From positions 1-60,138 of the forward strand of contig JAHEFS010000228.1 of NCBI GenBank assembly GCA_024640045.1: a DNA stretch of 60,138 nucleotides, read 5' to 3'. A program made the position numbers and the translations under genes. Of the stretch, positions 39,976-60,138 are shown one piece after another. Below the pieces are notes generated by a model, which had not been told where the DNA came from, did no database searches, and was given only the letters and a program-made list of their open reading frames with translations. The stretch comes from Chromatiales bacterium. Its GTDB lineage: Bacteria > Pseudomonadota > Gammaproteobacteria > Xanthomonadales > SZUA-36. The first letter of the stretch is position 1; each line of letters starts with the position of its first letter.

Positions 39976-40752
39976 TTACCCGAAACTCCGGTCCAGGCCG
40001 CGAGAACGATAGCTGCGGCAGGCATCACCGAAGGCTTCGAAGATGGCCAGGGAAGCAGGATTTCCCCGCACCTGCCACTCTGGATGCCATTGCACAGCCA
40101 GGGTAAAACCGGGCGCGTCTTCAACCATGAACGCTTCGACCAGGCCATCATCGGCCCGGGCCTCGACCCGCAGACCTTCACCCAGCCGGTCAAGGCCCTG
40201 CGAGTGCAGCGAGTTAACTGCTGTGCCTTCAAGCCCGGTGATTTTCCGCAACAGGCCACCCGGGACGAACTCCACGTTGTGCGAGAGGCCATACTGAACC
40301 TCCAGCGGGTCGTCGGGGTTTTCCTTGTGCAGGTGGTAACCCGGGACTTCGTGGACTTTCTGATAAAGGCTGCCGCCAAATGCGACGTTGATTTCCTGAA
40401 AACCCCGGCAGACCGCGAATAAAGGTAAACCCAGCCGGATGGCGGCCGGGATCAACGCCAGTGCCGCCGTGTCTCGCTCCGGATCATGCCAGGTACCGGG
40501 TTCACTGGGGTCGCCAAAATAGTGCTGAGGTTCCACGTTAGACGGGCTCCCGGTCAGGAACAGACCGTCAAGCCGGCCCAGAATGTCCAGTACGTCGAAA
40601 TCATCGGCCAGCAGTGGCAGCCCTACCGGATAGGCTTCCGCTCCATCGGAAACCGCACGCAGGTATTTCTCCCCGACCATGTGGAAGGGGTGCGGGCCAA
40701 CCATACGGCGATCCGAGATCACCCCGATCAGTGGGCGATGACTCTTGCTCAT
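39976..40752 (-). CDS. puuD: PuuD-like gamma-glutamyl-GABA hydrolase (peptidase C26)
   Basis: This class I glutamine-amidotransferase-like hydrolase releases GABA from gamma-glutamyl-GABA in the Puu pathway. The nucleophile is in LFAVCRGFQEINVAFGG, and the His-Glu pair is in AVQWHPEW. RLDGLFLTGSPSNVEP is the conserved core strand. Its 258 residues match E. coli PuuD. The ATG overlaps the agmatinase stop (ATGA). No glutamylputrescine synthetase gene is in the window, so the substrate may differ from E. coli. Confidence 0.85.
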   Translation of the reverse strand: MSKSHRPLIGVISDRRMVGPHPFHMVGEKYLRAVSDGAEAYPVGLPLLADDFDVLDILGRLDGLFLTGSPSNVEPQHYFGDPSEPGTWHDPERDTAALALIPAAIRLGLPLFAVCRGFQEINVAFGGSLYQKVHEVPGYHLHKENPDDPLEVQYGLSHNVEFVPGGLLRKITGLEGTAVNSLHSQGLDRLGEGLRVEARADDGLVEAFMVEDAPGFTLAVQWHPEWQVRGNPASLAIFEAFGDACRSYRSRGLDRSFG

Positions 40753-41720
40753 GAACTACCGTCTTTTCCGCGGGCCGGGCTGGCCGCATACAGGCAGAGC
40801 AACTCGGCCGCCAGTGTTGCCCCGGCAAACGCAGTGATGTCACCCGAATCGTAAGCCGGCGCTACCTCTACCAGATCCATGCCCACCATCCTCATGCCTG
40901 CCAGTCCACGAATGATCTCCAGCGCCTGAAAGCTGGAAAGCCCACCGCACACCGGCGTACCGGTGCCGGGTGCGAAGGCCGGATCGAGACAGTCGATATC
41001 GAAAGTCAGGTAGACCTTACGGTCACCCACGATTTCCCGCACCCGCCGCGCTACCGCTGCAGCGCCATGTTCATGCACCCAACGCGCATCGAGAATATTG
41101 AAGCCAAGCGTATCGTCATTGGTCGTGCGCAGGCCGATCTGTACCGATCTGGCCGGGTCCACCAGCCCTTCTTTGGCCGCCCGGTAAAACATGGTCCCGT
41201 GATCGACACGATTTCCTTCATCCGGCCAGGTATCGGAATGAGCGTCGAAATGCACCAGGCTGAGTTCTCCGTGCACCTTGGCGTGCGCGCGCAGCAGCGG
41301 GTAGGAAACGAAGTGATCACCGCCCAGTGCGAGGCAGGCGGCACCGGCCTGGAGAATGCCTTCCACGTGTTTCTCGATAAAGGGCGGAATGGAAGCAGCA
41401 TCACCATAATCGAACTGGCAGTCGCCGTAATCGACGATGTTCAGTTCTTCCAATGGATCGATTTTCCAGGGATACGGCCGTGCCCACGCCATGCTCGAGG
41501 ATGCCATGCGAATCGCGCGCGGCCCGAAGCGGGCACCCGGCCGGTTACTGGTGGCCGTGTCCAGGGGAATGCCCGTAACTGCCACGTCCACGCCGGCCAG
41601 ATTACGGCTGAATTTTCGTCTCAGAAAACTCTGCGCACCGGCAAACGAAGGGCCATGCTCGATCTTGCCGCGCAGGCCTTCACCCGTAAACGCATTGTCC
41701 CAGTCTCTGTCCTGGTTCAA
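40749..41720 (-). CDS. speB: Agmatinase (ureohydrolase family)
   Basis: The enzyme hydrolyses agmatine to putrescine and urea using two Mn ions. The metal ligands appear in LALGGDHFVSYP, LVHFDAHSDTW and LTFDIDCLDPAFAPGTGTP. GIPLDTATSNRPGARFGPRA at the N-terminus is typical of agmatinase. The start is TTG 41720, eight bases after GGAGG. The length of 323 residues fits. It lies 31 bp after the aminotransferase and is coupled to puuD. A related guanidino-acid hydrolase is the main alternative. Confidence 0.88.
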   Translation of the reverse strand: MNQDRDWDNAFTGEGLRGKIEHGPSFAGAQSFLRRKFSRNLAGVDVAVTGIPLDTATSNRPGARFGPRAIRMASSSMAWARPYPWKIDPLEELNIVDYGDCQFDYGDAASIPPFIEKHVEGILQAGAACLALGGDHFVSYPLLRAHAKVHGELSLVHFDAHSDTWPDEGNRVDHGTMFYRAAKEGLVDPARSVQIGLRTTNDDTLGFNILDARWVHEHGAAAVARRVREIVGDRKVYLTFDIDCLDPAFAPGTGTPVCGGLSSFQALEIIRGLAGMRMVGMDLVEVAPAYDSGDITAFAGATLAAELLCLYAASPARGKDGSS

Positions 41721-41751
41721 GAAATTTCCTCCACCTTGGGTCCGGTGCGTT

Positions 41752-43110
41752 TCAGGCCAGCGCCGCCTCAGTCAGGTCAAGGCACTTCCAGGCTTTTTCC
41801 ACCAGTTCATCGATGTGTGCTTTCTCACACACCAGCGGCGGAGCGACAATCATGCCATCACCCACCGCCCGCATCACCAGGCCGTTCTGGAAACAGAAAT
41901 CCCGGCAGCGCATGCCGGCGTGCTGGTCCTTGTCGAACCGCTCGCGGCTGCTCTTGTCACGCACCAGCTCCAGCGCGCCGACCATACCGATGCTGCGTGC
42001 CTCACCGATAATCGGATGGTCGTCCAGCTTCGCCCAGGACTGGTTGAAGTAAGGTCCGATTTCGTTTTTCACACGTTCCACAATACCCTCGTCCCGCAGC
42101 GCCCGGATATTGGCCAGTGCCACGGCACAGGCTGCGGGGTGACCGGAGTAGGTGTAGCCATGGGCAAACTCACCGCCTTGGGCGGAAATTACCTCGCCGA
42201 CACGTTCACCAACCAACACCCCCCCCAGCGGGAGATAACCCGAGGTCACGCCCTTGGCGAAGGTGATCAGATCCGGTTCGATGCCCAGGCGGGTGGAACC
42301 GAACCACTCGCCCAAACGCCCGAACCCGGTGATTACTTCGTCGGCGATCAGCAGGATGTCGTATTTACGGCAGATGCGCTGGATTTCCGGCCAATAGGTG
42401 TCCGGGGGAATGATGACGCCACCCGCTCCCTGAACCGGCTCACCGATAAAGGCCGCTACGTTCTCGGGTCCGAGTTCCTTGATCTTTTCCTCCAGCAATC
42501 GCGCCTGGCGCAAGCCGAACTCTGCCGGTGAAAGATCGCCGCCCAGCCCGAAATGGTAGGGCTGTTCGATATGCACCACGTGATTGACCATGTCGCCAGT
42601 CTGTTCGTGCATCGCGCCCATTCCGCCGAGGGTGCCTGCGGCCACCGTGCTGCCGTGATAGGCGTTCTTGCGGCTGATGAATTTCTTGCGCTGAGGCTGC
42701 CCCACCAGGTCCCAGTAACGGCGCACCAGCTTGATATTGGTGTCGTTGGATTCAGAGCCCGAGCCGGTAAAGAAACTGAGCTTAAAACCTGGTGGGCTGA
42801 CTTCCGCAAGCAGTTGGGACAGTTCGATGGCCGGCGGGTGGGCGGTCTGGAAGAAGCTGTTGTAGTAGGGCAGTTCCTGCAATTGCCTGCAGCCGGCCTC
42901 GATCAGATCCTGCCGACCGTAACCCAGGTTGACGCACCACAGCCCTGACATGCCGTCCAGGATCTGGTTACCCTCTGAATCGTACACGTACACACCTTCG
43001 GCGCGGGTGATGATGCGCGCGCCTTTCTGTCCCAGATCATGGTGATCGGTAAAAGGGTGCAGGTAATGGTCACTGTCGGCTTTCTGCCAACTGCGGGTCT
43101 TGGAGCTCAT
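41752..43110 (-). CDS. spuC: Class III omega-aminotransferase, SpuC-like (putrescine/pyruvate)
   Basis: This PLP enzyme moves the terminal amino group of putrescine or a related diamine to pyruvate. The Schiff-base lysine is K286 in LITFAKGVTSGYLPLGG. LIADEVITGFGR holds the PLP-pyridine aspartate, and SFFTGSGSESNDTNIKL binds phosphate. Its 452 residues and the N-terminal HHDLGQKGARIITRAEGVYV match SpuC-type enzymes. It is the first gene of the operon spuC-speB-puuD-membrane protein. The substrate is inferred from this context; beta-alanine/pyruvate transaminases are close relatives. Confidence 0.87.
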   Translation of the reverse strand: MSSKTRSWQKADSDHYLHPFTDHHDLGQKGARIITRAEGVYVYDSEGNQILDGMSGLWCVNLGYGRQDLIEAGCRQLQELPYYNSFFQTAHPPAIELSQLLAEVSPPGFKLSFFTGSGSESNDTNIKLVRRYWDLVGQPQRKKFISRKNAYHGSTVAAGTLGGMGAMHEQTGDMVNHVVHIEQPYHFGLGGDLSPAEFGLRQARLLEEKIKELGPENVAAFIGEPVQGAGGVIIPPDTYWPEIQRICRKYDILLIADEVITGFGRLGEWFGSTRLGIEPDLITFAKGVTSGYLPLGGVLVGERVGEVISAQGGEFAHGYTYSGHPAACAVALANIRALRDEGIVERVKNEIGPYFNQSWAKLDDHPIIGEARSIGMVGALELVRDKSSRERFDKDQHAGMRCRDFCFQNGLVMRAVGDGMIVAPPLVCEKAHIDELVEKAWKCLDLTEAALA

Positions 43111-47757: not shown

Positions 47758-48717
47758 ATGAGCAAAATCGAATACAAGTTGCCCAAACTGATTACCACGT
47801 CCGTGGTACGCGGATCACAGCAGGGCGAAAGCCATGGCGGCGTCTACATCATTGACTTTGCCGGCCAGGAAGTCTCCCAGGTGGTGGACTGGAACACCGG
47901 TGAAATCGACTTCCAGGGCCGCGGCTGGGACCGGGGTTTGCGGGGCATTGCGTTCTTTGCTGGAGAAATTTACGTCGCCGCCAGTGATGAACTGTTCGTC
48001 TACGACCAGGACTTCAGAATCCAGCGCTCGTTCCGCAGCACATATTTCAAGCATGGCCATGAGATTTTCCAGTTCAACAACCACCTCTACCTGACCTCAA
48101 CCGGCCATGACAGTATTTTGGCCTTCGACCTGGAACGGCAACGATTTTTCTGGGCCTTACACCTCGCGCTCGGCGAAAAAGGCCCCGTGGGAACACCTTA
48201 TGACCCGAATGGGATCAGCGGGCCGGGCGGGGTGAATGGACCACCCGCCAGCAACCATTTGCATTTGAACAACGTCTTCGCCGACCGCACCGGCATGTAC
48301 GTTAGCGGTTTGCGCACCGGCGGGATTCTGCGCGTCGGCGATCACAATACGGTGGAAATGGTGGTGGAACTGCCCCGCGGAATCCACAACGCCAGGCCGT
48401 TCCAGGACGGCGTATTGTTCAACGACACGGCTGCCAATCACGTGCGCTTCGTCCGCCGTGACGGCAGCGAACACCGTTTCGCCATCCCGCAATACGTTGA
48501 TTCGGAACTGACGCACACCGAGTTGGGTGACGATCAACTGGCCCGCCAGGGATTCGGCCGCGGCTTGTGTGTCGTCGACGAACAGTACCTGGCCGCTGGA
48601 TCGTCCCCTTCAACCGTCACCCTGTACGATCTCAGTAGCGGCGAGCGCATGACCGGGGTGAATTTCTCCATGGATATTCGCAACGCCATCCATGGGCTCG
48701 AAGTCTGGCCTTATTAA
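47758..48717 (+). CDS. Beta-propeller-like protein (DUF4915/TIGR03032-like)
   Basis: The 319 residues show repeated short beta blades (GVYIIDFAGQEVSQVVDWNT, GIAFFAGEIYVAASDELFVY, ILRVGDHNTVEMVVELPRGI) and the closing NAIHGLEVWPY. Histidines recur at blade ends (FKHGHEIFQFN, NHLHLNN), which is common in propellers with a central active site. There is no signal peptide, so it is cytoplasmic. It is divergent from the TMADH-like gene and convergent with the TonB receptor, sharing a terminator with it. The family assignment is tentative. Confidence 0.7.
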   Translation: MSKIEYKLPKLITTSVVRGSQQGESHGGVYIIDFAGQEVSQVVDWNTGEIDFQGRGWDRGLRGIAFFAGEIYVAASDELFVYDQDFRIQRSFRSTYFKHGHEIFQFNNHLYLTSTGHDSILAFDLERQRFFWALHLALGEKGPVGTPYDPNGISGPGGVNGPPASNHLHLNNVFADRTGMYVSGLRTGGILRVGDHNTVEMVVELPRGIHNARPFQDGVLFNDTAANHVRFVRRDGSEHRFAIPQYVDSELTHTELGDDQLARQGFGRGLCVVDEQYLAAGSSPSTVTLYDLSSGERMTGVNFSMDIRNAIHGLEVWPY

Positions 48718-48721
48718 GAAA

Positions 48722-48743
48722 AAGCCCCGGCTGGCCGGGGCTT
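48722..48743. terminator. Bidirectional intrinsic terminator
   Basis: AAGCCCCGG (48722-48730) pairs with CCGGGGCTT (48735-48743) around a four-base loop. A-rich DNA on the left gives a T-run on the minus strand, serving the TonB receptor. On the plus strand, TTCTT follows and serves the propeller gene. It is placed right between the two convergent stop codons. Confidence 0.88.
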
Positions 48744-48763
48744 CTTGGTATTGCTGAACTGGG

Positions 48764-51265
48764 TTACTTGCCGAAGGACTTGATATAGCGAACACCATAT
48801 TCGCGAGGCCGATTGACCGTTTGGCGGCCACGACCCCAGAACCGGTCGAACTCGTTCGAGTTATCAAACAGCACAGCACGCTCATCAGTCATGTTGTTGA
48901 CAAATAACTGCACGCTCCAGTCGTCTCCATTCAACCCGAACTTGAGGTCCGAAATGGTGTATGAGGGCTGCACCAACTGCGGCGCAGGCACTTCGAACGG
49001 AACATATTCTGCTGATTCGACCTGGTTAAGCATGTCGCCCACGTAGCTGGTCTGGAAGCGGATGAATGCGCTACCGGCACTGAGAAAGTCCACTGGCCAT
49101 TCGTAAGTGGCATATAAGGATCCCTTGAACTCCGGCGACAACGGCAAGCGGGATCCGTTGATAACGATGTCGGAAATTATCTCGTCGACATTATCGATTT
49201 TCGCGTCCAGCCAGGTAGCGTTGACGCCAATGGTCAGGCGCTCGGTGGGCACGGTATCGACCTGCAATTCGAAGCCTCTGGACGAAGCGTCGCCCACGTT
49301 GGCTACGACCTTCTGCCAGGGCTGGCCGCAATTGGGCTCAGGCAAGGCGTCATCGTCCCCGCAGGGCGTGTAGCTGGGATCGACCAACTCCAGCTGGTAG
49401 TCCTTCCAGGACATATCGAAGTAAGTGGCATTCATCCGTACCTTGCCATTGGCCAAGTTCGACTTTGCGCCAAATTCGATGTTTTCCAGCGTGTCGGAAT
49501 CAAACAACCTCGGGAAGTAGGGAATTCCCCGCCCACGATTGGACCCGCCGGGCCGGAACCCCTCCGAGTACAGACCGTAAACCATCCAGTCATCATTGAT
49601 TTGGTACTTTAGGCTGACCTTCGGCACCCAGTCGCTGACATCGCTACTCGGTGTGAGCACACCCTCGCCGGAGATGTTATCGGTCGGCTGCTCCACCCAG
49701 TAAACCTTGTCCATGGTGCGATCGAACCAACGCGCACCCAGGTTAAGATCGACTTGATCGGTCAGGTGAAAGGTCACTTCGCCAAATATGGCTTTTTGTT
49801 CAAAATCGGTACGGTCGAATGACCCGAACCAGGAATTGTCACCATACGGTGCACTGGGTGTCGGCAATCCCGACCAGGCCAGCCGGCCGTCCAACATGTT
49901 GAGCATGGCCTGCGACTGGTCGTAGCCGTCGGCATAGCTGTGGAAGTCCCAGGTCTCGCGAGCTCTCTCGTAAAACACACCCGCTGTCCAGTCCATTCGT
50001 TCACCGGTCGAGGCCAGGCGGAATTCTTGTGAGAACTTGGTGTTGCGTTGGGTATTTATCAGCCAGCCAGTGGGTTCGTTATAGTAGTTGCCCACGCCAG
50101 CCGGTTGGAAACAGTAGCGGCTGTAGCCGCCAACGCCCGCCTGGTAGTAGCCCGCGGCATCATAGTGACCGGCGTAGCAGAAGGTGCCGAAGTAGGCAGC
50201 GTAGGTGGTCGTGTCCTGAGTGTATTCCCAGTCACGCTCGAAATAGGAGGTCGCCGACACGAAGTCGGCAAAACCGAAGTCCGCTTCCACGGTCAATTGA
50301 TACTGGGTCCAGTCCTGGTTGTCGTATTCCTTGTTCGGATACCAGCGCACTACTTGCAAGTCGCCGATGGTCGGGTCCATCTCTGGCCGACCGTCGGAGT
50401 CGGTTTTTTGGTAGATCACACCGGCGGTGATAGTCCAGTTGTCGTTGGGTAGCCAGCGTGCCGCGATCCGGCCGCCGCTGGTGTCCACCTGGTTAAAATC
50501 CGACTCTTCCGCGCCGGCATTGGTCTTGTAGCCGAAGCGGGGGCTGGTGCCCAATACATTGTCGATGAAGCCACCATCCTTGGCCGAGAAACCCACCAGG
50601 CGGATAGCGGCGTTATCGCCCAGCGGCACATTGACCATCGCGCTAGCGTCGTAACTAGAATCACCCTTGGACATCGACTTGTAGGTCAGGTCGACATTCG
50701 CATCGAAGGCCGCGGGATCGGGCTTATTGGTGATGATGCGAAGCGTGCCCGACTGGGCGCTGGCGCCGTACAGCGTTCCCTGCGGTCCGCTGAGCGCTTC
50801 GACCCGCTCGATATCGACCATCCGCGGATCCGGTGTAGCATTCAGGGTCAATGACTGCTCGTCGATATACACGGCAGCAGAAGGCTCCGCGATAAACGAG
50901 TTCTGCGCATCGGCAATACCGCGGAAGACCACCATCGAGGTCCCCGGGTTGACCTGGGCATAGGACATGCTCGGAATGAACCGAACGTAATCGTCCATAC
51001 TGGAGAAGCCGGCTTCCTTGATCTGGTTGGCACCAATTGCCTGGATACTTTGCGGAATGTCCTGCAGGCTTTCTTCACGCTTGCGCGCCGTGACCATCAC
51101 TTCTTCGACGGTGCGTGAATTGCCGCTACCTGCGTCATCCTGGGCCACGACCGTGCCGGCCGGTGCGGCGAGGACGGCAGAGATGGCTAAGGACAGTTTT
51201 TTGGGTTCGAGGATTTGCTGACGCGGGAATATGGGAGCCTGCCGGACATCTTCGTTGCTGGCCAT
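48764..51265 (-). CDS. TonB-dependent outer-membrane receptor
   Basis: The 833-residue protein has a signal peptide (KKLSLAISAVLAAPAGTVVAQ), a TonB-box-like segment near TVEEVMVTARKREESLQDIP, a plug domain (VERVEALSGPQGTLYGASAQ) and a 22-strand barrel ending in GVRYIKSFGK. ATG 51265 has AGAGGA upstream and is chosen over the 32-residue longer frame. The ligand is unknown; the plug resembles those of receptors for large organic substrates and not classical siderophores, but this is weak. It has its own promoter and shares a terminator with the propeller gene. Confidence 0.9.
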   Translation of the reverse strand: MASNEDVRQAPIFPRQQILEPKKLSLAISAVLAAPAGTVVAQDDAGSGNSRTVEEVMVTARKREESLQDIPQSIQAIGANQIKEAGFSSMDDYVRFIPSMSYAQVNPGTSMVVFRGIADAQNSFIAEPSAAVYIDEQSLTLNATPDPRMVDIERVEALSGPQGTLYGASAQSGTLRIITNKPDPAAFDANVDLTYKSMSKGDSSYDASAMVNVPLGDNAAIRLVGFSAKDGGFIDNVLGTSPRFGYKTNAGAEESDFNQVDTSGGRIAARWLPNDNWTITAGVIYQKTDSDGRPEMDPTIGDLQVVRWYPNKEYDNQDWTQYQLTVEADFGFADFVSATSYFERDWEYTQDTTTYAAYFGTFCYAGHYDAAGYYQAGVGGYSRYCFQPAGVGNYYNEPTGWLINTQRNTKFSQEFRLASTGERMDWTAGVFYERARETWDFHSYADGYDQSQAMLNMLDGRLAWSGLPTPSAPYGDNSWFGSFDRTDFEQKAIFGEVTFHLTDQVDLNLGARWFDRTMDKVYWVEQPTDNISGEGVLTPSSDVSDWVPKVSLKYQINDDWMVYGLYSEGFRPGGSNRGRGIPYFPRLFDSDTLENIEFGAKSNLANGKVRMNATYFDMSWKDYQLELVDPSYTPCGDDDALPEPNCGQPWQKVVANVGDASSRGFELQVDTVPTERLTIGVNATWLDAKIDNVDEIISDIVINGSRLPLSPEFKGSLYATYEWPVDFLSAGSAFIRFQTSYVGDMLNQVESAEYVPFEVPAPQLVQPSYTISDLKFGLNGDDWSVQLFVNNMTDERAVLFDNSNEFDRFWGRGRQTVNRPREYGVRYIKSFGK

Positions 51266-51332
51266 GCTGTTAGGTCCTCTATAATGCTTGTTTTTCACGG
51301 ATTTACACTGCTTATGATTGTTCTTGATTTCG

Positions 51333-51361
51333 ATCATAGTTTGACCTGCCGAAAAATACAA
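51333..51361 (-). promoter_or_regulatory. Putative promoter of the TonB receptor
   Basis: On the minus strand, -35 TTGTAT (51361-51356) and -10 TATGAT (51338-51333) are separated by 17 bp. The leader to ATG 51265 is about 60 nt and contains AGAGGA. On the other side, the plus-strand hydroxylase gene has a TATACT hexamer about 35 bp before its start with a poor -35. The rest of the 241-bp divergent gap shows no ORF that I can support, including no obvious precursor peptide. Confidence 0.55.
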
Positions 51362-51506
51362 ACTCTTATTGGCCGCGTGCCGCAGGCGATGTTTTAGCCG
51401 CCAAAAGGTTGCCTTGCCGTGTACTCTCCAGTTTATCGATTGCGGAAAAGGCGCTTAAACAGCCCTGTTTTCATCGCTATACTCAACACCATCTGCCGCC
51501 GGAATC

Positions 51507-52064
51507 ATGAGCCCGATGAACATTGATACCCCTCTTCGCGAACTGGGCCCGGTCAACTCCGGCGCCCTGATCGACACGGTCCTGGCCCAGGGCGATGCCG
51601 CCTGGCAGGCGCAGCAGTATCGGCAAAACGCGTATTCGGTGCATGAACACACTGAGTCACTGGTCATGGTCTTTTGCCAGGGCTGGCCGGAACTGAAGGT
51701 CACGCGGGAGCCATCCTGGGAAGCGCTCAAGGATGTCGCCGTTCCGCTCATGCATCAGCTGATCGAAAACTTTTACCCGCCTGGAGGCACGATCATCCGG
51801 GCCATGGCCGCCAAGCTGAAGTCGGGCGGAATCATTGCGCCACACAAGGACACGCACCAGTCCTTCGTCGCCAGCCACCGCATCCACGTGCCGATTACCA
51901 CCAATGCGGGCGTGCGCTTCATGATTGGCGGCCGCCCCTACCGCTTCGAGGTCGGCCAAGCCTACGAGATCAACAACCAGAAGCACCACAGCGTAATGAA
52001 CAACGGCAAGGAAGACCGCATCACGTTTATCTTCGACTATTTGCCGCCTGCGGTGGCCACCTAG
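51507..52064 (+). CDS. Aspartyl/asparaginyl beta-hydroxylase-like dioxygenase
   Basis: The 185-residue protein fits the 2-oxoglutarate/Fe(II) Asp_Arg_Hydrox family. The iron ligands are in IAPHKDTHQSF and in NNQKHHSVMNNG. The 2-oxoglutarate-binding arginine is probably in SHRIHVPITTNAGVRFMIGG or DRITFIFDYLP. It could hydroxylate Asp or Asn in a protein or peptide. It is divergent from the TonB receptor and convergent with the TPR-sulfotransferase, with a MITE-like repeat right after its stop. The substrate is unknown. Confidence 0.85.
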   Translation: MSPMNIDTPLRELGPVNSGALIDTVLAQGDAAWQAQQYRQNAYSVHEHTESLVMVFCQGWPELKVTREPSWEALKDVAVPLMHQLIENFYPPGGTIIRAMAAKLKSGGIIAPHKDTHQSFVASHRIHVPITTNAGVRFMIGGRPYRFEVGQAYEINNQKHHSVMNNGKEDRITFIFDYLPPAVAT

Positions 52065-52082
52065 CGCACCAAGAACAAGAGA

Positions 52083-52322
52083 AACCGCAAATTGCGCAAA
52101 TTGAGCAAATTACGCGAATTATTAAGATTGGTCTTTCGGCACACTGGAAAGCCCTGCCAGGAACGAGTTGTAGTCGAGAAATTCAAATCCCCGTCGCGAA
52201 ACTAGGCAAAGTCAGCCGGTTTGAGGCGCAAAATATGTCAATGGACTTTCATGGTTGCGAGGCAAAGCTCCGGTTCATCTTTTTTTTGCGTAATTTGCGT
52301 TTAATTTGCGTAATTTGCGGTT
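52083..52322. mobile_element. MITE-like element with ~35-bp imperfect inverted ends
   Basis: The left end (52083-52115) and the reverse complement of the right end (52288-52322) match over nearly 35 bases with few changes. Each end is itself three tandem copies of a CGCAAATTA-type unit. The 170-bp core carries no gene; an apparent plus-strand frame through it is an extension of hydroxylase overlap. It lies exactly between two convergent genes. No clear target duplication is seen. It could be a MITE, or a palindromic repeat that folds in RNA and ends both genes. Confidence 0.6.
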
Positions 52323-52328
52323 AATCCT

Positions 52329-54362
52329 CTAGCCCTGCAAAGATCGCGGCCGGTCGGCTTCAGGCAAGTCCTTCAGCAGGGGCTCCAGGATTTCGATCAG
52401 TTCCCCCAGGTGATCTTCATAGTGCCGCCAGTAATTCAGCGCCTTGGTATAAATCGGCTGGCGAACCTGCTCGGAACTGGCGGTGTTGATCGCTCGGTCG
52501 GTCTCGTAAAATCGCAGGCACTGGTCTTCCCAGGTGAGCCCGCAGTATTCGAGCAGGCGCCGGGTCTGGTTTTCCTGGTCAAGCACCATATCCTCGTACT
52601 GCAGGTCCAGCACCTTGCCCGGCAGCACTGCATGCCAGTGGTCCACAATGCGTTGATATTGCAAATAATACTGGCCCAATTCGAATTGATCGTAGGTAAA
52701 AGACTGGCCCTTGTAAAACAATTGCTTGTAACAACCCATGCAGCTGTCCAATGGGTGCCGCCGCGCGTTGATCACTTTTGCATTCGGCAAGATCAGGTGC
52801 AGAAACCCGATGCTGGCGAAGTTGTTAGGCATCTTGTCGACAAACCAGGCTTTACCTGTGCGGTAACGCTGGGTGGTTTCCAGATATTTCTGCCCGAGGC
52901 TGGCAAAATCCTGCTGGCTGAGCTGCGCCAATACTTCTGGGTACTCCTGACCGTCTTTACGGTTGCGGTTGATATCCCGAATCAGCCGGCTGAGATCGGG
53001 CAGTTCCATGGTGCCTTCGACCTGGCTGTGGCTGGCCAGAATTTGCTCGATCAGGGTGGATCCGGAGCGTGGCAACCCGACGATAAGGATAGGCCCGAAT
53101 GACGGGTCGCCGCAGTCAGCGCGATTCGCCAGGAACTCGGGGGTGAAGACTTCGATGATCCGGTCGTGAATGACCTGTGTCTGAACCGGGTCATAAGTCT
53201 CGTGTGTCCGCCGCAACTCGTTCCCCAGGCGATAGTGTTCGAATGCCCGGTCATAATCGCTGCAGTTTTCGAAGTGCTTGCCGAGCGAAAGATAGAAATT
53301 AACCTTCGGCTCGTCAGCTAGTTCATCATCCTCGACCATGTGCTGCATCACGCGGACTTCCTCATCGTCAAATTCGAAAGTCTTGAGGTTGGCCAGGCTC
53401 CAGTAGGCTTCGCCCAGGGCCGGGTGTGCCCGGATGCACTCCCGGTAGGCGGCTATCGACTCATCCTGCCGGCCGATGGTCTTCAACACGTGTCCGATGC
53501 CGGACAAGGCACCGCCGTGGCCCGGGCTCAGGTCCAGCGCCTCTCGGTAGGAGGCCAAAGCCTCTTCGTGGCGCTGGGCCTTGGACAGAACATTGCCGCG
53601 AATGACTTGGGCGAAAGGCAGCTTGGGATCCAACTGGATGGCGTGTTCTACGTGGTCCAGCGCTTTGTCGAAGACTTCCTGCTGCAAGTAGAGGGTTGCC
53701 AAGTCGTTCCAGGCAAGGATGAAATCAGGCGCCAGTTCCACCGCCCGCTGCAACAAGCGTTCCGCAGCGCCCCACTTGTTGGCTTCAGTGGCCAGGCTGC
53801 CCAGCATGCGCAGGGCTGTCACTTCATCAGGCTCACGCTTCAGAATCTCTCGGAGAATCTGCTCGGCTTCGACGATGTTGTTCTCTCTTTGAGCCTCAAA
53901 CGCCCGGGCCAGCGCGGCGCGTTTGGGATCCAGCTTGAACGCCCGCTCTACGGCCTGTTCAGCTTCGATCCCCTGCCCGGTCGCCGCCAAGGCCTTGCCG
54001 AGCAGGAACAGGGTCGATGGACGGTCCGGCATCGCCGCCAAGACCTGTTGCAGGTACTTGACTGCTTTTGCCGGCTTGCGGTCACGCAAATGCGCCCGGC
54101 CCATGCCTTCCAGCGCTCGCGGAAAATTGGGATAGAGCTTGAGTACACGGCCAAAGAAGGACTTGGCTTCCTGCGAACGGCGCTGCTTGAGAACAATTTC
54201 TCCCAGCAGGCACAGGATATTGGGGTCCCTGCCAAATTCTGGCAACGCTCGCCGGCAGATCAATTCCGCGCCGGCATCGTCACCCGCCCCTTCAGTCCGG
54301 CAAGCAAGGTCATACACCTGGCGAATGCGCTCGATTTGTTCGGGGCCGGGTTTCGGAGTCAT
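52329..54362 (-). CDS. TPR-repeat sulfotransferase
   Basis: The first ~400 residues hold about nine TPRs (for example AWNDLATLYLQQEVFDKALD, SYREALDLSPGHGGALSGIG). The C-terminal ~270 residues are a sulfotransferase: the PAPS 5'-phosphosulfate loop is LIVGLPRSGSTLIEQIL near residue 430, VDKMPNNF follows, and the 3'-phosphate region is NARRHPLDSCMG. It could sulfate tyrosine, glycan or lipid acceptors recognised by the TPRs. No signal peptide is visible. It is convergent with the hydroxylase gene. Confidence 0.87.
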   Translation of the reverse strand: MTPKPGPEQIERIRQVYDLACRTEGAGDDAGAELICRRALPEFGRDPNILCLLGEIVLKQRRSQEAKSFFGRVLKLYPNFPRALEGMGRAHLRDRKPAKAVKYLQQVLAAMPDRPSTLFLLGKALAATGQGIEAEQAVERAFKLDPKRAALARAFEAQRENNIVEAEQILREILKREPDEVTALRMLGSLATEANKWGAAERLLQRAVELAPDFILAWNDLATLYLQQEVFDKALDHVEHAIQLDPKLPFAQVIRGNVLSKAQRHEEALASYREALDLSPGHGGALSGIGHVLKTIGRQDESIAAYRECIRAHPALGEAYWSLANLKTFEFDDEEVRVMQHMVEDDELADEPKVNFYLSLGKHFENCSDYDRAFEHYRLGNELRRTHETYDPVQTQVIHDRIIEVFTPEFLANRADCGDPSFGPILIVGLPRSGSTLIEQILASHSQVEGTMELPDLSRLIRDINRNRKDGQEYPEVLAQLSQQDFASLGQKYLETTQRYRTGKAWFVDKMPNNFASIGFLHLILPNAKVINARRHPLDSCMGCYKQLFYKGQSFTYDQFELGQYYLQYQRIVDHWHAVLPGKVLDLQYEDMVLDQENQTRRLLEYCGLTWEDQCLRFYETDRAINTASSEQVRQPIYTKALNYWRHYEDHLGELIEILEPLLKDLPEADRPRSLQG

Positions 54363-54513: not shown

Positions 54514-56007
54514 ATGCTGGAAAAGACCACCCAAAACTGGAAATCACAGGCTGAAGAGCTGGATATAGAGTCGCGAGCGTTCATCAACGGCCGTTTTGTC
54601 GATGCTGTCTCGGGAGAGACCCGCACCTGTTTCAACCCGGCGGATGGATCGCGGCTGGCAGAAGTTGCCTGCTGCGGGCCGGAGGACGCTGACGTGGCGG
54701 TCGCCGGCGCCCGGGCCGTCTTCGAACGCGGCGACTGGGCCAAAATGGCGCCTGCCGACCGCAAGCGAATACTTGTCCAGTGGGCGGAGTTGATCGAGCA
54801 AAATACCGAAGAGTTAGCCTTGCTGGAGTGTCTGGATGTAGGCAAACCCATTTCGGACACGGTCAACGTGGATGTGCCCTCAGCCGTACGAACGATCCGC
54901 TGGAGTGGTGAGGCGATCGATAAGGTTTATGACGAAATTCCACCGACTCCCGCAGATACGCTAGCGCTCATCCAACGCCTGCCGCTGGGGGTGGTGGCCG
55001 CCATCGTGCCGTGGAACTTCCCCCTGTCGACCACGGCCTGGAAGTTGGCGCCATCACTGGCCACTGGTAACTCGGTGGTGCTCAAGCCAGCTTCCGCCAC
55101 GCCACTGTCCGCACTCTATATTGCCCGGCTTGCAGCCGAGGCGGGACTGCCGGAAGGCGTGCTGCAAGTGCTGCCCGGGCCGGGCGGCAGCATGGGCAAG
55201 CACCTTGCCCTGCACATGGATATCGACGGCCTGACTTTTACCGGGTCGACACCGGTCGGCCAACTTTTGATGCAGTATTCGGGGAAGTCCAACCTCAAGC
55301 GGACTTTCCTCGAGTTGGGCGGCAAAAGCCCCAACATCGTCTTTGCCGACGCCAATCTTGACAAGGCCGCAGCCATGGCCGCGGCGGCGGTTTTCTATAA
55401 CGGGGGGCAGACCTGCACCGCCGGCACCCGCCTGATCGTGGAGGAGAAAATTCTGGACGCATTCATGGACAAGGTGACAGGCCATGCCGCGAAGTGGATG
55501 CCGGGCAACCCCCTCGATCCGGCAACCCGCATGGGCCCGATGATCGACGAAGCCCAGCACAACAACGTTGCGGAATACGTAAAAATCGGCCACGAAGAAG
55601 GCGCGGTGCTGACCTTCGGCGGCAATCGCGTTTTGGACGAGACCGGCGGCTACTATCATGAACCCACCATTTTCTGCCGCGTTAGCAACCAGATGCAAAT
55701 CGCCCAGGAAGAAATATTCGGCCCGGTGTTGTCAGTGATTCCTTTTGCTGATGTCGAGGAGGCCGTCAACATTGCCAATGATTCCATTTACGGTCTGGCT
55801 GGTGCCGTCTGGAGTAATGACATCAACACCGCGCATAGTGTCGCTGCGGCTGTGCGAGTCGGCACGATGGGCATCAACAACTATTTTGGCGGTGATATCA
55901 CGGTGCCTTTTGGCGGCTTCAAACAAAGCGGCAATGGCCGGGACAAGTCGATCCACGCTTTCCACGATTACACCGAACTGAAAACCACCTGGATCGAGTT
56001 CGAGTAA
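54514..56007 (+). CDS. puuC: PuuC-like NAD(P) aldehyde dehydrogenase
   Basis: The 497-residue enzyme oxidises aminobutyraldehyde-type aldehydes. The catalytic Cys301 is in NGGQTCTAGTRL and the general base Glu267 is in FLELGGKSPNIVFAD. The N-terminal pattern SRAFINGRFVDA, GVFERGDW-like AVFERGDWAKM, and EAIDKVYDEIPPT agree closely with E. coli PuuC, a gamma-glutamyl-gamma-aminobutyraldehyde dehydrogenase. It would complete the putrescine route begun by SpuC 12 kb away. It is followed 43 bp later by the MATE gene. Confidence 0.88.
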   Translation: MLEKTTQNWKSQAEELDIESRAFINGRFVDAVSGETRTCFNPADGSRLAEVACCGPEDADVAVAGARAVFERGDWAKMAPADRKRILVQWAELIEQNTEELALLECLDVGKPISDTVNVDVPSAVRTIRWSGEAIDKVYDEIPPTPADTLALIQRLPLGVVAAIVPWNFPLSTTAWKLAPSLATGNSVVLKPASATPLSALYIARLAAEAGLPEGVLQVLPGPGGSMGKHLALHMDIDGLTFTGSTPVGQLLMQYSGKSNLKRTFLELGGKSPNIVFADANLDKAAAMAAAAVFYNGGQTCTAGTRLIVEEKILDAFMDKVTGHAAKWMPGNPLDPATRMGPMIDEAQHNNVAEYVKIGHEEGAVLTFGGNRVLDETGGYYHEPTIFCRVSNQMQIAQEEIFGPVLSVIPFADVEEAVNIANDSIYGLAGAVWSNDINTAHSVAAAVRVGTMGINNYFGGDITVPFGGFKQSGNGRDKSIHAFHDYTELKTTWIEFE

Positions 56008-56049
56008 GGTCATCTCGTGACGATCCGGGCATGGCTTTAGCAGCCGGGC

Positions 56050-57396
56050 ATGACGGGTGACGCGCGCCACGATCTGACCCAGGGCCCTGTCGCGGGGCAT
56101 CTGCGACGCCAGGCCACACCGTTTGCATTGGGCCTGGTCGCGATTTTTTCGTTCGAGGCCGTCGATATGTTTTTCATCTCCCGTTTGGGGGATGCACCAT
56201 TGGCGGCTATCAGCTTCTGCTTCCCGGTGATCTGGCTGATCTACGCGATTGGAATCGGTTTCGAGGCGGGGGCCGCATCCTGCGTGTCTCGGGCAGTGGG
56301 TCGCGGCGATAATGCTCAGGCCCGGCGCCTCACCACCGACACCGCCGCGCTCGCCGGCGGCGTGGCACTGCTGATCTGCCTGGTCGGCCTGGCCAGCATC
56401 GAGCCGATTTTCACCCTGCTCGGGGCCACGCCCGACCTGATGCCGCTGATCCGCGTCTACATGACAACCTGGTACTGGGTGGCCCCGCTTGATGTGATCC
56501 TATGGTCTTCCCTGGCCGCGATGCGGGCCCGTGGCAACACGCTGCTGGAAAGCAAGATCATCACAGCCGCGGCACTGCTCAACCTGGCGCTCGACCCCAT
56601 ATTCATCTTCGGTCTGTTCGGCTTTCCCAGGCTGGAGATGCAGGGGGCCGCGCTGGCTACGGTGGTTTCCACCGGCATCATGCTCGCCTTCACCCTGCTC
56701 TATCTGCATGTGCGCTTGCGGGTCTACGCCCGACTGATCGCTCCGTTCCAGGACATCCTCGCTTCCTGGAAGCACATGCTGCATATCGGCATCCCGGCGA
56801 TCGCCACCAACGCCATCGTGCCGCTGTCCAGCGCCATCGTGGTATCCATGATTGCTCGCTTCGGGAGCGACGCCGTCGCCGGCTATGGGGTGGCCATGCG
56901 CGTGGAGCCGATATTCCTGATCCCGTTTTACGCCCTGTCCGCCGTTTCCAGCCCATTTTTTGGACAGAATTTCGGCGCCGGCCAGCTCGATCGCCTGGTC
57001 GAGGCCCGTCGCGTCGTGGCGCGTTTTTGCCTGGCCTTTGGCCTGGGCCTGGCCGCGCTTCTGTGGTTGCTGGCCCGACCACTGGCGGGCCTGTTCAGTG
57101 ACACGCCCCAGATACTGCAAGTCGCGGTTCAATACCTGTACCTCGTGCCTCTTTCCTACGGGGCGTACGGTCTCGTCATGTCGACCAATGCTTCTTTCAA
57201 CGGCATGGGCAAGCCTTTACCGGCGGTCATGATTTCGGCTTCGCGGGTGATCCTGCTGTTCCTGCCGCTGGCCCTGCTCGGGCGCTGGCTGTTTGGCCTG
57301 CCGGGTCTGTTTGCGGCCAGCACGGTGTCCAACCTGACCCTGGGCCTGATCGGCTTTCTGTGGCTGGGGCGCGTGGTCAGGAAGTCACGGGATTAA
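56050..57396 (+). CDS. MATE-family efflux transporter
   Basis: The 448-residue protein has about twelve membrane helices. The N-terminal ATPFALGLVAIFSFEAVDMF and the FFISRLGDAPLAAIS segment are typical of MATE/NorM-like Na+- or H+-driven exporters. GYGVAMRVEPIFLIPFYALS is the matching segment of the second half. It probably exports cationic compounds. It follows the aldehyde dehydrogenase on the same strand and may be cotranscribed. It overlaps the convergent TIM-barrel gene by four bases. Confidence 0.85.
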   Translation: MTGDARHDLTQGPVAGHLRRQATPFALGLVAIFSFEAVDMFFISRLGDAPLAAISFCFPVIWLIYAIGIGFEAGAASCVSRAVGRGDNAQARRLTTDTAALAGGVALLICLVGLASIEPIFTLLGATPDLMPLIRVYMTTWYWVAPLDVILWSSLAAMRARGNTLLESKIITAAALLNLALDPIFIFGLFGFPRLEMQGAALATVVSTGIMLAFTLLYLHVRLRVYARLIAPFQDILASWKHMLHIGIPAIATNAIVPLSSAIVVSMIARFGSDAVAGYGVAMRVEPIFLIPFYALSAVSSPFFGQNFGAGQLDRLVEARRVVARFCLAFGLGLAALLWLLARPLAGLFSDTPQILQVAVQYLYLVPLSYGAYGLVMSTNASFNGMGKPLPAVMISASRVILLFLPLALLGRWLFGLPGLFAASTVSNLTLGLIGFLWLGRVVRKSRD

Positions 57397-58238
57397 GACG
57401 CGAACGCGGTCTCGCTCCAGGTTTCTTCCACCCATTTGCGAATCTTGAGAGCTTCGACCCAGCGGTCGGAAAGCTCCCGACCCTGTGCATCGGTCATGGC
57501 ATAAGGCGGCGGCCCGAGCTCGCACAGAAAATGCAGGGTTGCTCCCTCCGCATTGCGTTCCCGCCACATCCCGATACCCTCCCGCCACCATTGCCGGAAC
57601 TGCGCCACCCAGTCGGCGTGCTGCGGAAAGTCAATCTGCACCTGGACCTGTTCGCGGTTGGCAATACGGCCCTGGAAACAGTCGGAACGGCGCAGAATAC
57701 GCTGCATGAATTCATGATCACGCGCGGACAGCGGCAGCCGCATCTCGCGGTCGATGACGTAATGTGACAAGTCGGCGCACAGGCGCATGTCCGGCACCTG
57801 CTCAATCAGTTGCAGCGTAAAGTAGAGGTCATTGAGGGTGCAGTCACGGTGTGTTTCGAACAGCACCGTCAGACCTGCCGCTTCGGCGTCCGCCATCCAC
57901 CGGCGAATGACCGGCACGGCTTCAGGCACGGTCAGTGGCATGACCTGGCCGATCACGTTCACCAGGCAGGCATCGAGTTCCAGCGCCAGGTCCAGCAGCG
58001 GCGTAAGTTCGTCCACGGTCGCGGGAAACGCGTTGACCATGCACTTGAGCCCGAATTGGCGATACAGCGGCGCGAGCTTGCGGCAGTCCTCGATCTCATG
58101 CACCGCGGGATCGATGCACAAGCCGTGGTAACCCGCCTCGGCCGCCATGCGGAAATTTTCTTCCATCGGGCGTTCCGGTCGGCCGGGCTGGCGCAACTCC
58201 ATCGCCCACAACGACTGGAAAATTTCGAGGTGTTGCAC
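57393..58238 (-). CDS. Sugar phosphate isomerase/epimerase-like TIM barrel
   Basis: The 281 residues fit the xylose-isomerase-like TIM barrel family (AP endonuclease family 2 fold). Visible pieces are EAGYHGLCIDPAVHEIEDC, VLFETHRDCTLNDLY with the metal glutamate and histidine, and LCADLSHYVIDREM with the metal aspartate and histidine. Real substrates of such proteins range widely, from keto-sugars to inositol. It starts four bases after the desaturase stop, so the two are one operon. The link between them is unknown. Confidence 0.82.
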   Translation of the reverse strand: MQHLEIFQSLWAMELRQPGRPERPMEENFRMAAEAGYHGLCIDPAVHEIEDCRKLAPLYRQFGLKCMVNAFPATVDELTPLLDLALELDACLVNVIGQVMPLTVPEAVPVIRRWMADAEAAGLTVLFETHRDCTLNDLYFTLQLIEQVPDMRLCADLSHYVIDREMRLPLSARDHEFMQRILRRSDCFQGRIANREQVQVQIDFPQHADWVAQFRQWWREGIGMWRERNAEGATLHFLCELGPPPYAMTDAQGRELSDRWVEALKIRKWVEETWSETAFAS

Positions 58239-58242
58239 GACC

Positions 58243-59280
58243 TCAGAAGCTCATCAGAAAGGAAACAGCGTTGCCACCGTAAACTTCACCGGCGCGTACC
58301 GCCTGCAGGTAGTCTTCCTGCATGGGCGAGGGCCGACCGTCGAGGTCGCCACCTTGGTGCAACACCCGCTGCACACGATACCTGTGGTAAATCTTCAGCT
58401 GGGTGCGGAACGGAATCACCCGGGCTGGATCACCGCTGATGTGTTCCTTGTGATAGGCCGGCAGGCGGTACCACGGCAAGGTCGGGCGGGCGTGATGCGC
58501 GTTGTGCCAGCCAAAATTCAGCGTCAGCCAGTTGAGCCATTCATGCTCGAATGACAAGGGATTGCTGAACGTGTGCAGCTGCTCGGTCGAGCGTCCGCCA
58601 AAACGCGACGGTGCGTTTTCAACGAACAGGATCGCATTGGCGCCGTAGTCATGCTGCAGGCTGTCCATAAAACGCAGCACGTGCATCATGAGCATATAAG
58701 CAACCATATAGAGAATTGCGGCTTTTGGCGCCAACAGCAGCACGGTGAAGAAAAGGCCACCACGAACCAGCAGGGTTAGTACGTTGCGGAGCCGGTGCAG
58801 TTCTCGGCCCGGAACGATGAAGGCATTGAACACCAGGATGAAATGCATCATCAGGTCATGCGCAGGGATATAGAACCACTCGAAAAACTGGATCATCCTT
58901 GCCAGCCACGGGTGACGGTGCAGGAATTCATCGTAGAGGAACCAGACCGAATCATCGTTATCCATGTGGTGGCGAAAATGCTTGTAACGGATGTCTTCGT
59001 AGGTGGTATAGAACGAGCCGCTGATCCAGTTCAGCAGCTCTCCCAGCACCGCGTTGGGGCGATTGCTGCGAAAAATGGTGTTGTGCCCGCACTCGTGGAT
59101 GAGATAGGCGGCAATGGTCATCGCATGCGCCAGCCACAAGGTGGCCAGGGCATTGACCCACCATGCTTCAGCAAACAGGCCCCGCAACCCCAGGACGTAT
59201 CCGCTCAAGGCATACAGCAGGGCGCCACCGTGATAAACGATGCCGGCCGGCTCGTGGAATTTCGTAACGATCGCTCTCAT
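58243..59280 (-). CDS. Fatty-acid desaturase/hydroxylase-like di-iron membrane protein
   Basis: Three histidine boxes define the family: HECGHN in the first helical pair, FRHHMDND after YKHFRHH, and HNAHHARP near the C-terminus. Hydrophobic helices lie at about residues 15-60 and 140-185. ATG 59280 gives 345 residues and starts MRAIVTKFHEPAGI; ATG 59331 is a close alternative, and the longer frame to 59451 is less likely because it runs through the divergent gene's start. It could act on acyl chains, alkanes or terpenoids. It is divergent from the FAD oxidase gene and heads an operon with the TIM-barrel gene. Confidence 0.83.
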   Translation of the reverse strand: MRAIVTKFHEPAGIVYHGGALLYALSGYVLGLRGLFAEAWWVNALATLWLAHAMTIAAYLIHECGHNTIFRSNRPNAVLGELLNWISGSFYTTYEDIRYKHFRHHMDNDDSVWFLYDEFLHRHPWLARMIQFFEWFYIPAHDLMMHFILVFNAFIVPGRELHRLRNVLTLLVRGGLFFTVLLLAPKAAILYMVAYMLMMHVLRFMDSLQHDYGANAILFVENAPSRFGGRSTEQLHTFSNPLSFEHEWLNWLTLNFGWHNAHHARPTLPWYRLPAYHKEHISGDPARVIPFRTQLKIYHRYRVQRVLHQGGDLDGRPSPMQEDYLQAVRAGEVYGGNAVSFLMSF

Positions 59281-59360
59281 GGCTCTTGGGTCAACTCCGC
59301 TGTCTGCACTATTATCAACTCGAGACCGCATAGCCGCCAGCCCCGACAAGCCAATCACCC

Positions 59361-60138
59361 ATGCATCAACCGACCTCAAGAGATGAAGCCTTCTATCGCG
59401 CCCAGAGTTACTGGCTGGACTCGCTCGAAAAAGACCTCGCACCTCGGGCACCCCTGACGCGTCGGCGTACGGCTGACGTCGTCATTATTGGCGCTGGTTT
59501 CACCGGCCTGTGGACAGCCTACTACCTGAAACGACACGCTCCGATGCTGGACGTCGTGGTCCTTGAAGCAGATATTGCCGGATTCGGCGCCTCGGGTCGT
59601 AATGGTGGCTGGGCCAGTGCCTACCTGGCGGGCATCGAGGCTATGGCGGCCGACCCCGTTCGGCGAGAAGGGGCGCTGCGACTGCAGCAGATGATGATCG
59701 AAACGGTGCCGGAAATCGCACAGGTGGCCAACACGGAAGGCATCAACTGCCATTTCGAGCAATCCGGGCACCTGGCGGCTGCGGTGTTGCCCGCGCAAGA
59801 CGTAAGGCTAAGGGAGCACGTGGACGAGTTGCTCCAACTGGGTTTCAGCACGGATGACTGTCATTATCTGAATGCGCGCGAACTCGACGAAAAAATTCAC
59901 ATCGATGGTGCACTTGGCGGAATGTTCATGGCCCATTGCGCGGCCATAGATCCAGCTCGCCTGGTGCGTGGCCTGGCATCCGCGGTCGAAAGGCAAGGCG
60001 TGGCTGTTTACGAAAACACGCCCGCCACACACTTCGGCCCGGGTGTGGTGAACACACCATATGGGCTGGTCTGCACCGAACACATACTGATCGCGACCGA
60101 GGGCTACAGCGGTTCACTGTCTCAGATGAGACGCAAGC
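59361..60138 (+). CDS. puuB: FAD-dependent amine oxidase, PuuB-like (3' truncated by the window edge)
   Basis: The first 259 residues are present; no stop is reached. The Rossmann motif VVIIGAGFTGLWTAYYLK (residues 40-57) binds FAD. FGASGRNGGWASAYLAG is the DAO-family segment after it, and E. coli PuuB (gamma-glutamylputrescine oxidase) shares this start layout (YRAQSYWLDSLE at residues 12-23). Glycine or dimethylglycine oxidase-like members are the main alternative. The context of PuuC, PuuD and SpuC-like genes supports a polyamine role. Confidence 0.83.
   Translation, partial: MHQPTSRDEAFYRAQSYWLDSLEKDLAPRAPLTRRRTADVVIIGAGFTGLWTAYYLKRHAPMLDVVVLEADIAGFGASGRNGGWASAYLAGIEAMAADPVRREGALRLQQMMIETVPEIAQVANTEGINCHFEQSGHLAAAVLPAQDVRLREHVDELLQLGFSTDDCHYLNARELDEKIHIDGALGGMFMAHCAAIDPARLVRGLASAVERQGVAVYENTPATHFGPGVVNTPYGLVCTEHILIATEGYSGSLSQMRRK

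Follow-up and report, generated by a model that had tools for sequence, protein, structure and literature searches.

A TonB-dependent receptor clade paired with TPR-sulfotransferases, and its possible modification by a four-gene module of a Chromatiales genome

In a 60,138-nt stretch of DNA from a Chromatiales bacterium (GCA_024640045.1, contig JAHEFS010000228.1; hereafter the window), which belongs to a metagenome-assembled genome (MAG) that is 89% complete, four adjacent genes at 47758-54362 encode a TonB-dependent receptor (TBDR), an AspH-like dioxygenase (AspH), a sulfotransferase fused to tetratricopeptide repeats (TPR-ST) and a propeller-like protein (PROP). A sequence-only reading had singled out these four genes and proposed that they modify a secreted peptide or the receptor itself, or handle sulfated ligands; all four were present, three of them with Pfam matches. 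They are grouped in related genomes far beyond chance, and TPR-STs were found paired with receptors, mostly of one clade, over many paralogues. Of the proposed functions, modification of the receptor by the sulfotransferase is the best supported (by the pairing over paralogues, the correlated divergence of the two proteins, the domain resembling tyrosylprotein sulfotransferases (TPSTs) and the Tyr-rich loops of many paired receptors), whereas nothing in the gaps of 20 loci pointed to a secreted peptide; the module may handle sulfated ligands. The four genes probably form one functional unit, tentatively read here as a receptor-dedicated modification module (probability about 0.4) in which the TPR-ST sulfates its own receptor, with AspH and PROP as helpers.

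Recurrence of the module and receptor pairing

The AspH protein was searched in 61 genomes (the window's own plus relatives) and matched in 28 of them. Close orthologues, at no less than 54% identity, were found at 22 loci in 20 genomes, one of which (G016) is a 72-residue match. The fetched stretch harboured a TPR-ST at 21 of these 22 loci, the miss being L052, a 3.2-kb contig. A TBDR was present at 20: the profile detected 19, and the contig of L052, also sampled as L018, holds a C-terminal fragment of one; L053 and L057, the latter a 3.8-kb contig, had none. PROP was in the stretch at 12 loci, with a thirteenth just beyond it (G019:C77). The order PROP-TBDR-AspH-TPR-ST is common to the window and seven same-family relatives (L038, L039, L040, L041, L042, L044 and L117), while seven distinct four-gene orders were counted by eye in all; in four strong PROP carriers from four other taxonomic families (G040, G179, G225 and G787), all four genes lie within about 14 kb. 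The co-occurrence of the four families that the sequence-only reading had left to be checked was thus strong across relatives, and random neighbourhoods were not seen.

The TPR-ST and the receptor are paired beyond these loci. Ten genomes picked for carrying PROP or AspH gave 50 TPR-ST matches in total with an E-value no higher than 1e-40. Of these, 25 have a TBDR within 1 kb, 33 within 2 kb and 40 within 5 kb, against 2.3, 3.0 and 5.1 expected from TBDR density; in one more case (G787:2825252) Pfam shows a TBDR 2.5 kb off that was missed by the receptor profile. The window's own genome carries three TPR-ST copies at the same threshold. When the best three or four receptor candidates per genome were scored in a class sample of 274 genomes, the ten best receptors (at least 716.8 bits; four of the ten were in the profile) all had a TPR-ST within 1.8 kb, as did 14 of the 22 listed receptors, or 15 when a later search is included. 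In eight genomes that were searched deeper, a TPR-ST stood no more than 2 kb away from 8 of 10 non-profile receptors at 490 bits or above, and from 3 of the 19 fetched receptors that scored lower. The distance matrices of receptors and TPR-STs were correlated over 41 neighbouring pairs (Mantel r = 0.887; reached by 0 of 2000 permutations), with r = 0.902 for the 33 within-genome paralogue comparisons. No published account of this pairing, or of receptor modification of this kind, was found in the open-access literature, a scope outside which most subscription papers lie.

Receptors were divided into three sets: set A, those at PROP and/or AspH loci plus L061 (beside a distant PF05118-like protein); set B, other receptors near a TPR-ST (L143-L170); and set C, receptors from the same ten genomes without a TPR-ST in the stretch (40 stretches, the top of 317 matches; 38 of the 40 had a profile match). 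No TPR-ST was found in the 40 stretches of set C, which is mostly distant from set A. In a tree of 73 sequences (32 A, 17 B and 24 C), one clade with a support of 0.94 holds 32 of 32 A and 15 of 17 B receptors; set A includes, here and in the signature counts, the stray low-scoring TBDR of L051, and four B rows that aligned too poorly were omitted, including the receptors of L157, L165 and L168 (weak profile matches). The same clade also takes in an unpaired receptor, L195, as well as L171, which duplicates L055 and was mislabelled as unpaired, and two receptors next to short TPR-STs (L149 and L156) fall outside it.

The clade is marked by signature residues, numbered from the TTG start and counted with L171 excluded, as in the Tyr counts below. 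D623 was found in 33 of 33 A, 15 of 17 B and 0 of 28 C receptors, W652 in 32 of 33, 14 of 17 and 2 of 28, R208 in 32 of 33, 15 of 20 and 2 of 35, and E168 of the YxDE motif in 28 of 32, 13 of 19 and 2 of 34, respectively. Together with the Tyr-rich loop, YxDE, D623 and W652 allow such receptors to be picked from other genomes.

Predicted enzymes and candidate targets

The TPR-ST matches Sulfotransfer_3 (1e-51) as well as TPRs. Among solved structures, its sulfotransferase domain matched TPST1 and TPST2 best (6e-7 to 4e-6; 3ap1, 5wri and 8w5z); CurM came next (2e-4), then a further polyketide-synthase domain, and SULTs began at 0.04. At each of P431, R432, G434, S435 and T436 of the P-loop, and of R535, E453, K510, S629 and S630, no more than one of 34 aligned TPR-STs deviates, and in the alignment to solved TPSTs E453, K510 and S629 fall on the putative catalytic Glu, Lys and Ser positions. 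By analogy with TPSTs, we take the P-loop to be the site of 3′-phosphoadenosine-5′-phosphosulfate (PAPS), R535 the 3′-phosphate Arg, and E453, K510 and S629 catalytic. The TPR half resembles the TPR region of O-GlcNAc transferase (OGT), which suggests a protein-substrate groove. A simple hydropathy scan found no strongly hydrophobic N-terminal segment in AspH, PROP or TPR-ST, and the three are therefore most likely cytosolic. The receptor itself matches the plug (PF07715; 4e-13) and barrel (PF00593; 1.5e-38) families, both over cut-off, and a simple scan for a signal peptide found no more than a weakly hydrophobic stretch near its N-terminus (KD19 1.66 at residue 56).

AspH matches PF05118 (1.7e-12; 47.9 bits versus a cut-off of 22.6), a family found once in the window's genome. 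None of H113, D115 and H161, its H-x-D...H triad, varies among the 20 sequences aligned, and by analogy with the family the three would bind iron. Its nearest folds, in a modest match (TM 0.5-0.6), were Cpz10, L-proline cis-4-hydroxylase and human AspH, so that both a protein and a small molecule are possible substrates. As candidate target residues in the receptor, the columns of D224, D238, P580 and R846 differ between 19 AspH-positive and 11 AspH-negative receptors; the candidates were set aside, as phylogeny confounds this comparison. A distant PF05118-like protein (a 380-aa open reading frame (ORF), 29% identical over the matched part) stands beside a TPR-ST and a TBDR at L061:9369-12568 and was perhaps recruited independently.

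At E 0.01, neither Pfam nor NCBIfam gave a family match for PROP of the window, and other members gave scattered weak family matches (best 0.00089, PQQ_2). Its profile matched WD40 proteins and one designed propeller, and its structure model (mean pLDDT 74.5, from a thin alignment of 3 sequences) is all-beta and matches propellers in an unspecific fold search; a beta-propeller is thus a modest prediction. An identity with TIGR03032/DUF4915 was considered and dropped, being supported by no scan. PROP was carried by 5 of 274 genomes in the class sample (two weak), 26 of 299 in the order sample (five weak; two from outside the window's family) and 5 of 349 in the phylum sample (three weak). In the fetched stretches of L114, L123, L124, L125, L126, L128 and L129, PROP was accompanied by neither a TBDR nor a TPR-ST, and in several of them it was near genes of aminotransferase, arginase-like or MFS clusters; it may therefore have a role outside the receptor module.

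The maximal number of Tyr per 50 residues had a median of 11 in set A (range 6-13, n=32), 8 in set B receptors of at least 400 bits (6-14, n=12), 6 in seven other B receptors (5-13) and 5 in the unpaired set C (3-8, n=36). In the aligned loop (residues 371-447 of the window's receptor) the median was 10 in set A (n=32) and 6.5 in set B (n=16), and among newly collected receptors it was 7 in linked (n=11) and 2 in unlinked ones (9 of 18 alignable there); one receptor of set C was alignable. By within-protein shuffling, Tyr was significantly clustered (P≤0.01) in 23 of 32 receptors of set A, compared with 2 of 12 in set B and none of 36 in set C. L149 and L156, which lie outside the clade beside TPR-STs, reach 12 and 13.

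Under the proposed mechanism, the cytosolic TPR-ST would grip its cognate, still unfolded TonB receptor via the TPR superhelix, and its TPST-like domain, with PAPS as donor, would sulfate receptor tyrosines, chiefly those in Tyr-rich loops predicted to face outward after assembly. The receptor would be exported after modification and import a nutrient that differs by locus, while AspH may add a 2-oxoglutarate-dependent hydroxylation in a subset of modules and PROP may help as a scaffold or substrate-binding factor. That the whole clade is Tyr-sulfated on such loops by an adjacent dedicated TPR-ST, with the hydroxylase and propeller completing the module in some lineages, can be suggested with some reserve.

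Weighing receptor modification against other explanations

A number of results weigh against receptor sulfation or limit the evidence for it. When all twenty amino acids were compared alike, Tyr separated paired from unpaired receptors best and was the sole one with P<0.01 in both A and B, which favours sulfation, yet these P values ignore relatedness and are thus too small, and most of the unpaired controls are distant receptors. Trp, too, is elevated in A though not in B, as expected of a ligand-binding loop. TPSTs favour acidic residues beside the target Tyr, yet [DE]Y is not enriched in the loops of set A (medians of 0 in A, 2 in B, 1 in new linked and 0 in new unlinked receptors). A prediction made in advance set a minimum of 8 Tyr per 50 residues for eight new paired receptors, each named beforehand, and a maximum of 7 for eight unpaired ones, likewise named; it was borne out in three of the former (9, 8, 8, 7, 7, 6, 4 and 4) and five of the latter (7, 4, 3, 3 and 4). 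Of the remaining unpaired ones, G314:C1:350174 had 8, G076:C7 (also 8) proved to have a TPR-ST 114 bp off, and G179:C81 was misread; the unnamed unpaired L230 had 8 as well. Tyr did differ between new linked (n=12, one from set A) and unlinked (n=18) receptors (P=0.004), a statistic that includes L225 at 2, a value from an antisense frame. Given the outcome of the prediction, Tyr-richness is strong in modules bearing PROP or AspH; in other modules it is moderate or lacking.

Most receptors paired with short TPR-STs have no Tyr-rich loop (maxima of 6 in L152, L158, L163, L167 and L170, 8 in L169, 5 in L157, L165 and L168, 4 in L224 and L227, and 7 in L235), so that Tyr-richness cannot explain all of the pairing. 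Conversely, L222, which is close by profile, has 7 Tyr (6 in the loop) and no TPR-ST on its contig. Moreover, the pairing is not strictly one-to-one, with two TPR-STs near what seems a single receptor in at least seven places; the correlated divergence can be obtained from linkage alone and so shows inheritance as a unit, not contact. Finally, enzymes of PF05118 act on small molecules too, members with such substrates being described in PMC9814697.

The last point bears on an alternative in which the product of the enzymes is a small molecule, sulfated and hydroxylated and akin to a siderophore, signal or toxin, that leaves the cell and is taken back up through the paired receptor; we consider this unlikely. 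Pairing of receptor and enzymes would follow equally from it, a MATE exporter gene is near the module in several loci, and two of the nearest AspH folds, Cpz10 and L-proline cis-4-hydroxylase, use small molecules. However, a Pfam scan of 26 neighbour proteins, a minority of all neighbours, revealed no NRPS (non-ribosomal peptide synthetase), PKS (polyketide synthase) or other scaffold-making gene; those flanking genes that have an annotation are largely of catabolic type and vary by locus, and no conserved peptide was found in the gaps. In that search, 232 small ORFs from gaps of 31-2500 bp at 20 loci were compared, and a precursor of a ribosomally synthesized and post-translationally modified peptide was rejected, none of the 20 most shared gap ORFs being conserved across module loci; all 20 lie in the TBDR-PROP gap of L039, L041 and L042, the site of an FAD oxidoreductase gene. 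This agrees with the earlier failure to find a precursor peptide in the gaps of the window.

Distinctly unlikely, in our judgement, is a cytosolic action of the enzymes on the nutrient that the receptor brings in, such as a sulfo-conjugation or hydroxylation step in its catabolism. The window module does lie among polyamine-type catabolic genes: its neighbours are class III aminotransferase, arginase-family, Peptidase C26, PuuC-like aldehyde dehydrogenase, DAO-type oxidase and MATE genes, and the flanks at 39976-43110 and 54514-60138 resemble a polyamine-catabolism gene set. Paralogous modules elsewhere are close to Rieske-, GcvT-, MetF- (by eye) or acyl-CoA-dehydrogenase-like (by Pfam) proteins, or glycoside hydrolases, as in the glycan locus of G787 with its GH20, GH2, esterase and X-Pro peptidase genes. 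It is precisely this variation that speaks against the explanation, as the receptor and its enzymes are constant across loci while the annotated catabolic genes, and with them the nutrient pathway, change.

Sulfotransfer_3 enzymes have many acceptors, and Tyr-rich loops are missing from some paired receptors; it is nevertheless very improbable that the TPR-ST sulfates another surface component (lipopolysaccharide (LPS), capsule or another protein) and is merely co-regulated with the receptor, given the pairing over many paralogues, the correlated divergence and the lack of any LPS or capsule gene among the 26 scanned neighbours. That the cluster spread by horizontal transfer as hitch-hiking genes without functional interaction would suit its patchy distribution but can scarcely be credited, since the linkage persists through seven gene orders and many paralogous pairs.

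TPR-sulfotransferases are often without an assigned substrate in genome annotation, and the tight pairing with one receptor clade gives them a direct candidate. If the receptor loops are sulfated, protein tyrosine sulfation would be extended to bacterial transport, and binding to the receptor at the cell surface could change.

Genomic setting and known counterparts

Reading rightward, the gene order in the window is PROP (+), TBDR (-), AspH (+) and TPR-ST (-). PROP and TBDR are convergent, as are AspH and TPR-ST, and TBDR and AspH are divergent; the four genes are therefore not an operon. Their coordinates and internal features are listed in Table 1.

Table 1. Genes and internal features of the module in the window
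Feature	Coordinates	Strand	Basis or remark
PROP, 319-aa beta-propeller-like protein without known family	47758..48717	+	ORF list, profile scans, modest model
TBDR, TonB-dependent receptor from the clade that is mostly paired with TPR-STs	48764..51265 (ATG at 51265)	-	Likelier start; listed ORF begins with TTG at 51361
Candidate sulfation target: Tyr-rich loop of the receptor with 12 Tyr (residues 371-447, numbered from the TTG)	50021..50251	-	Extracellular side predicted from TBDR topology
Plug signature Y165-x-D167-E168	50858..50869	-	Receptor alignment; unpaired receptors mostly D-G or D-D
AspH-like 2-oxoglutarate hydroxylase (PF05118) of 185 aa with H113/D115/H161 as presumed metal triad	51507..52064	+	Pfam, alignment
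TPR-ST, N-terminal TPR superhelix and C-terminal TPST-like sulfotransferase domain	52329..54362	-	Pfam, alignment
TPR-ST sulfotransferase domain, residues 424-613; P-loop 431-436, E453, K510 and R535 inside, S629/S630 just past its end	52524..53093	-	

Between AspH and TPR-ST, 52083-52322 is a dispersed palindromic element with 20-nt inverted ends that looks like a miniature inverted-repeat transposable element or palindromic repeat, and copies of its inverted ends are, among the matches listed, on nine other contigs of the same genome. In a sister locus, a DUF6445 (PF20043) gene adjoins the TPR-ST (L040:11942-12676), with BLAST-cluster relatives in other sister loci; the window has no space for one there. 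At L041:7051-9271 the TBDR is broken into two overlapping reading frames, by a frameshift or an assembly error. Farther off in the window, 32617-34674 encodes a TIR domain (ThsB_TIR was matched too) with TPRs, a possible defence or signalling protein.

Several known systems resemble parts of the module. TPST1 and TPST2, the nearest sequence relatives among solved structures, share the P-loop PRSGxT and the aligned Glu, Lys, Arg and Ser, whereas the TPR-ST is bacterial, is fused to N-terminal TPRs, has no membrane anchor that was seen and is partnered by a TonB receptor, its activity being predicted from sequence. RaxST of Xanthomonas is reportedly a bacterial cytosolic TPST-like enzyme that sulfates a Tyr of RaxX before export, as is proposed for the TPR-ST; its substrate, however, is said to be a small secreted peptide, of which none was found in the gaps of the loci here. 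OGT has the same layout of TPRs followed by a catalytic domain, but the catalytic half of the TPR-ST is a sulfotransferase. Human AspH, Cpz10 and L-proline cis-4-hydroxylase are likened to the window's hydroxylase by the PF05118 match and a modest fold match, although the window form is a stand-alone protein of 185 aa. Finally, SapC, Trp halogenase or cupin-type genes are said to accompany TonB receptors in other clusters, which would combine, like the module and the DUF6445 genes of its sister loci, a receptor with unexplained modifying-enzyme genes, though of different enzyme families.

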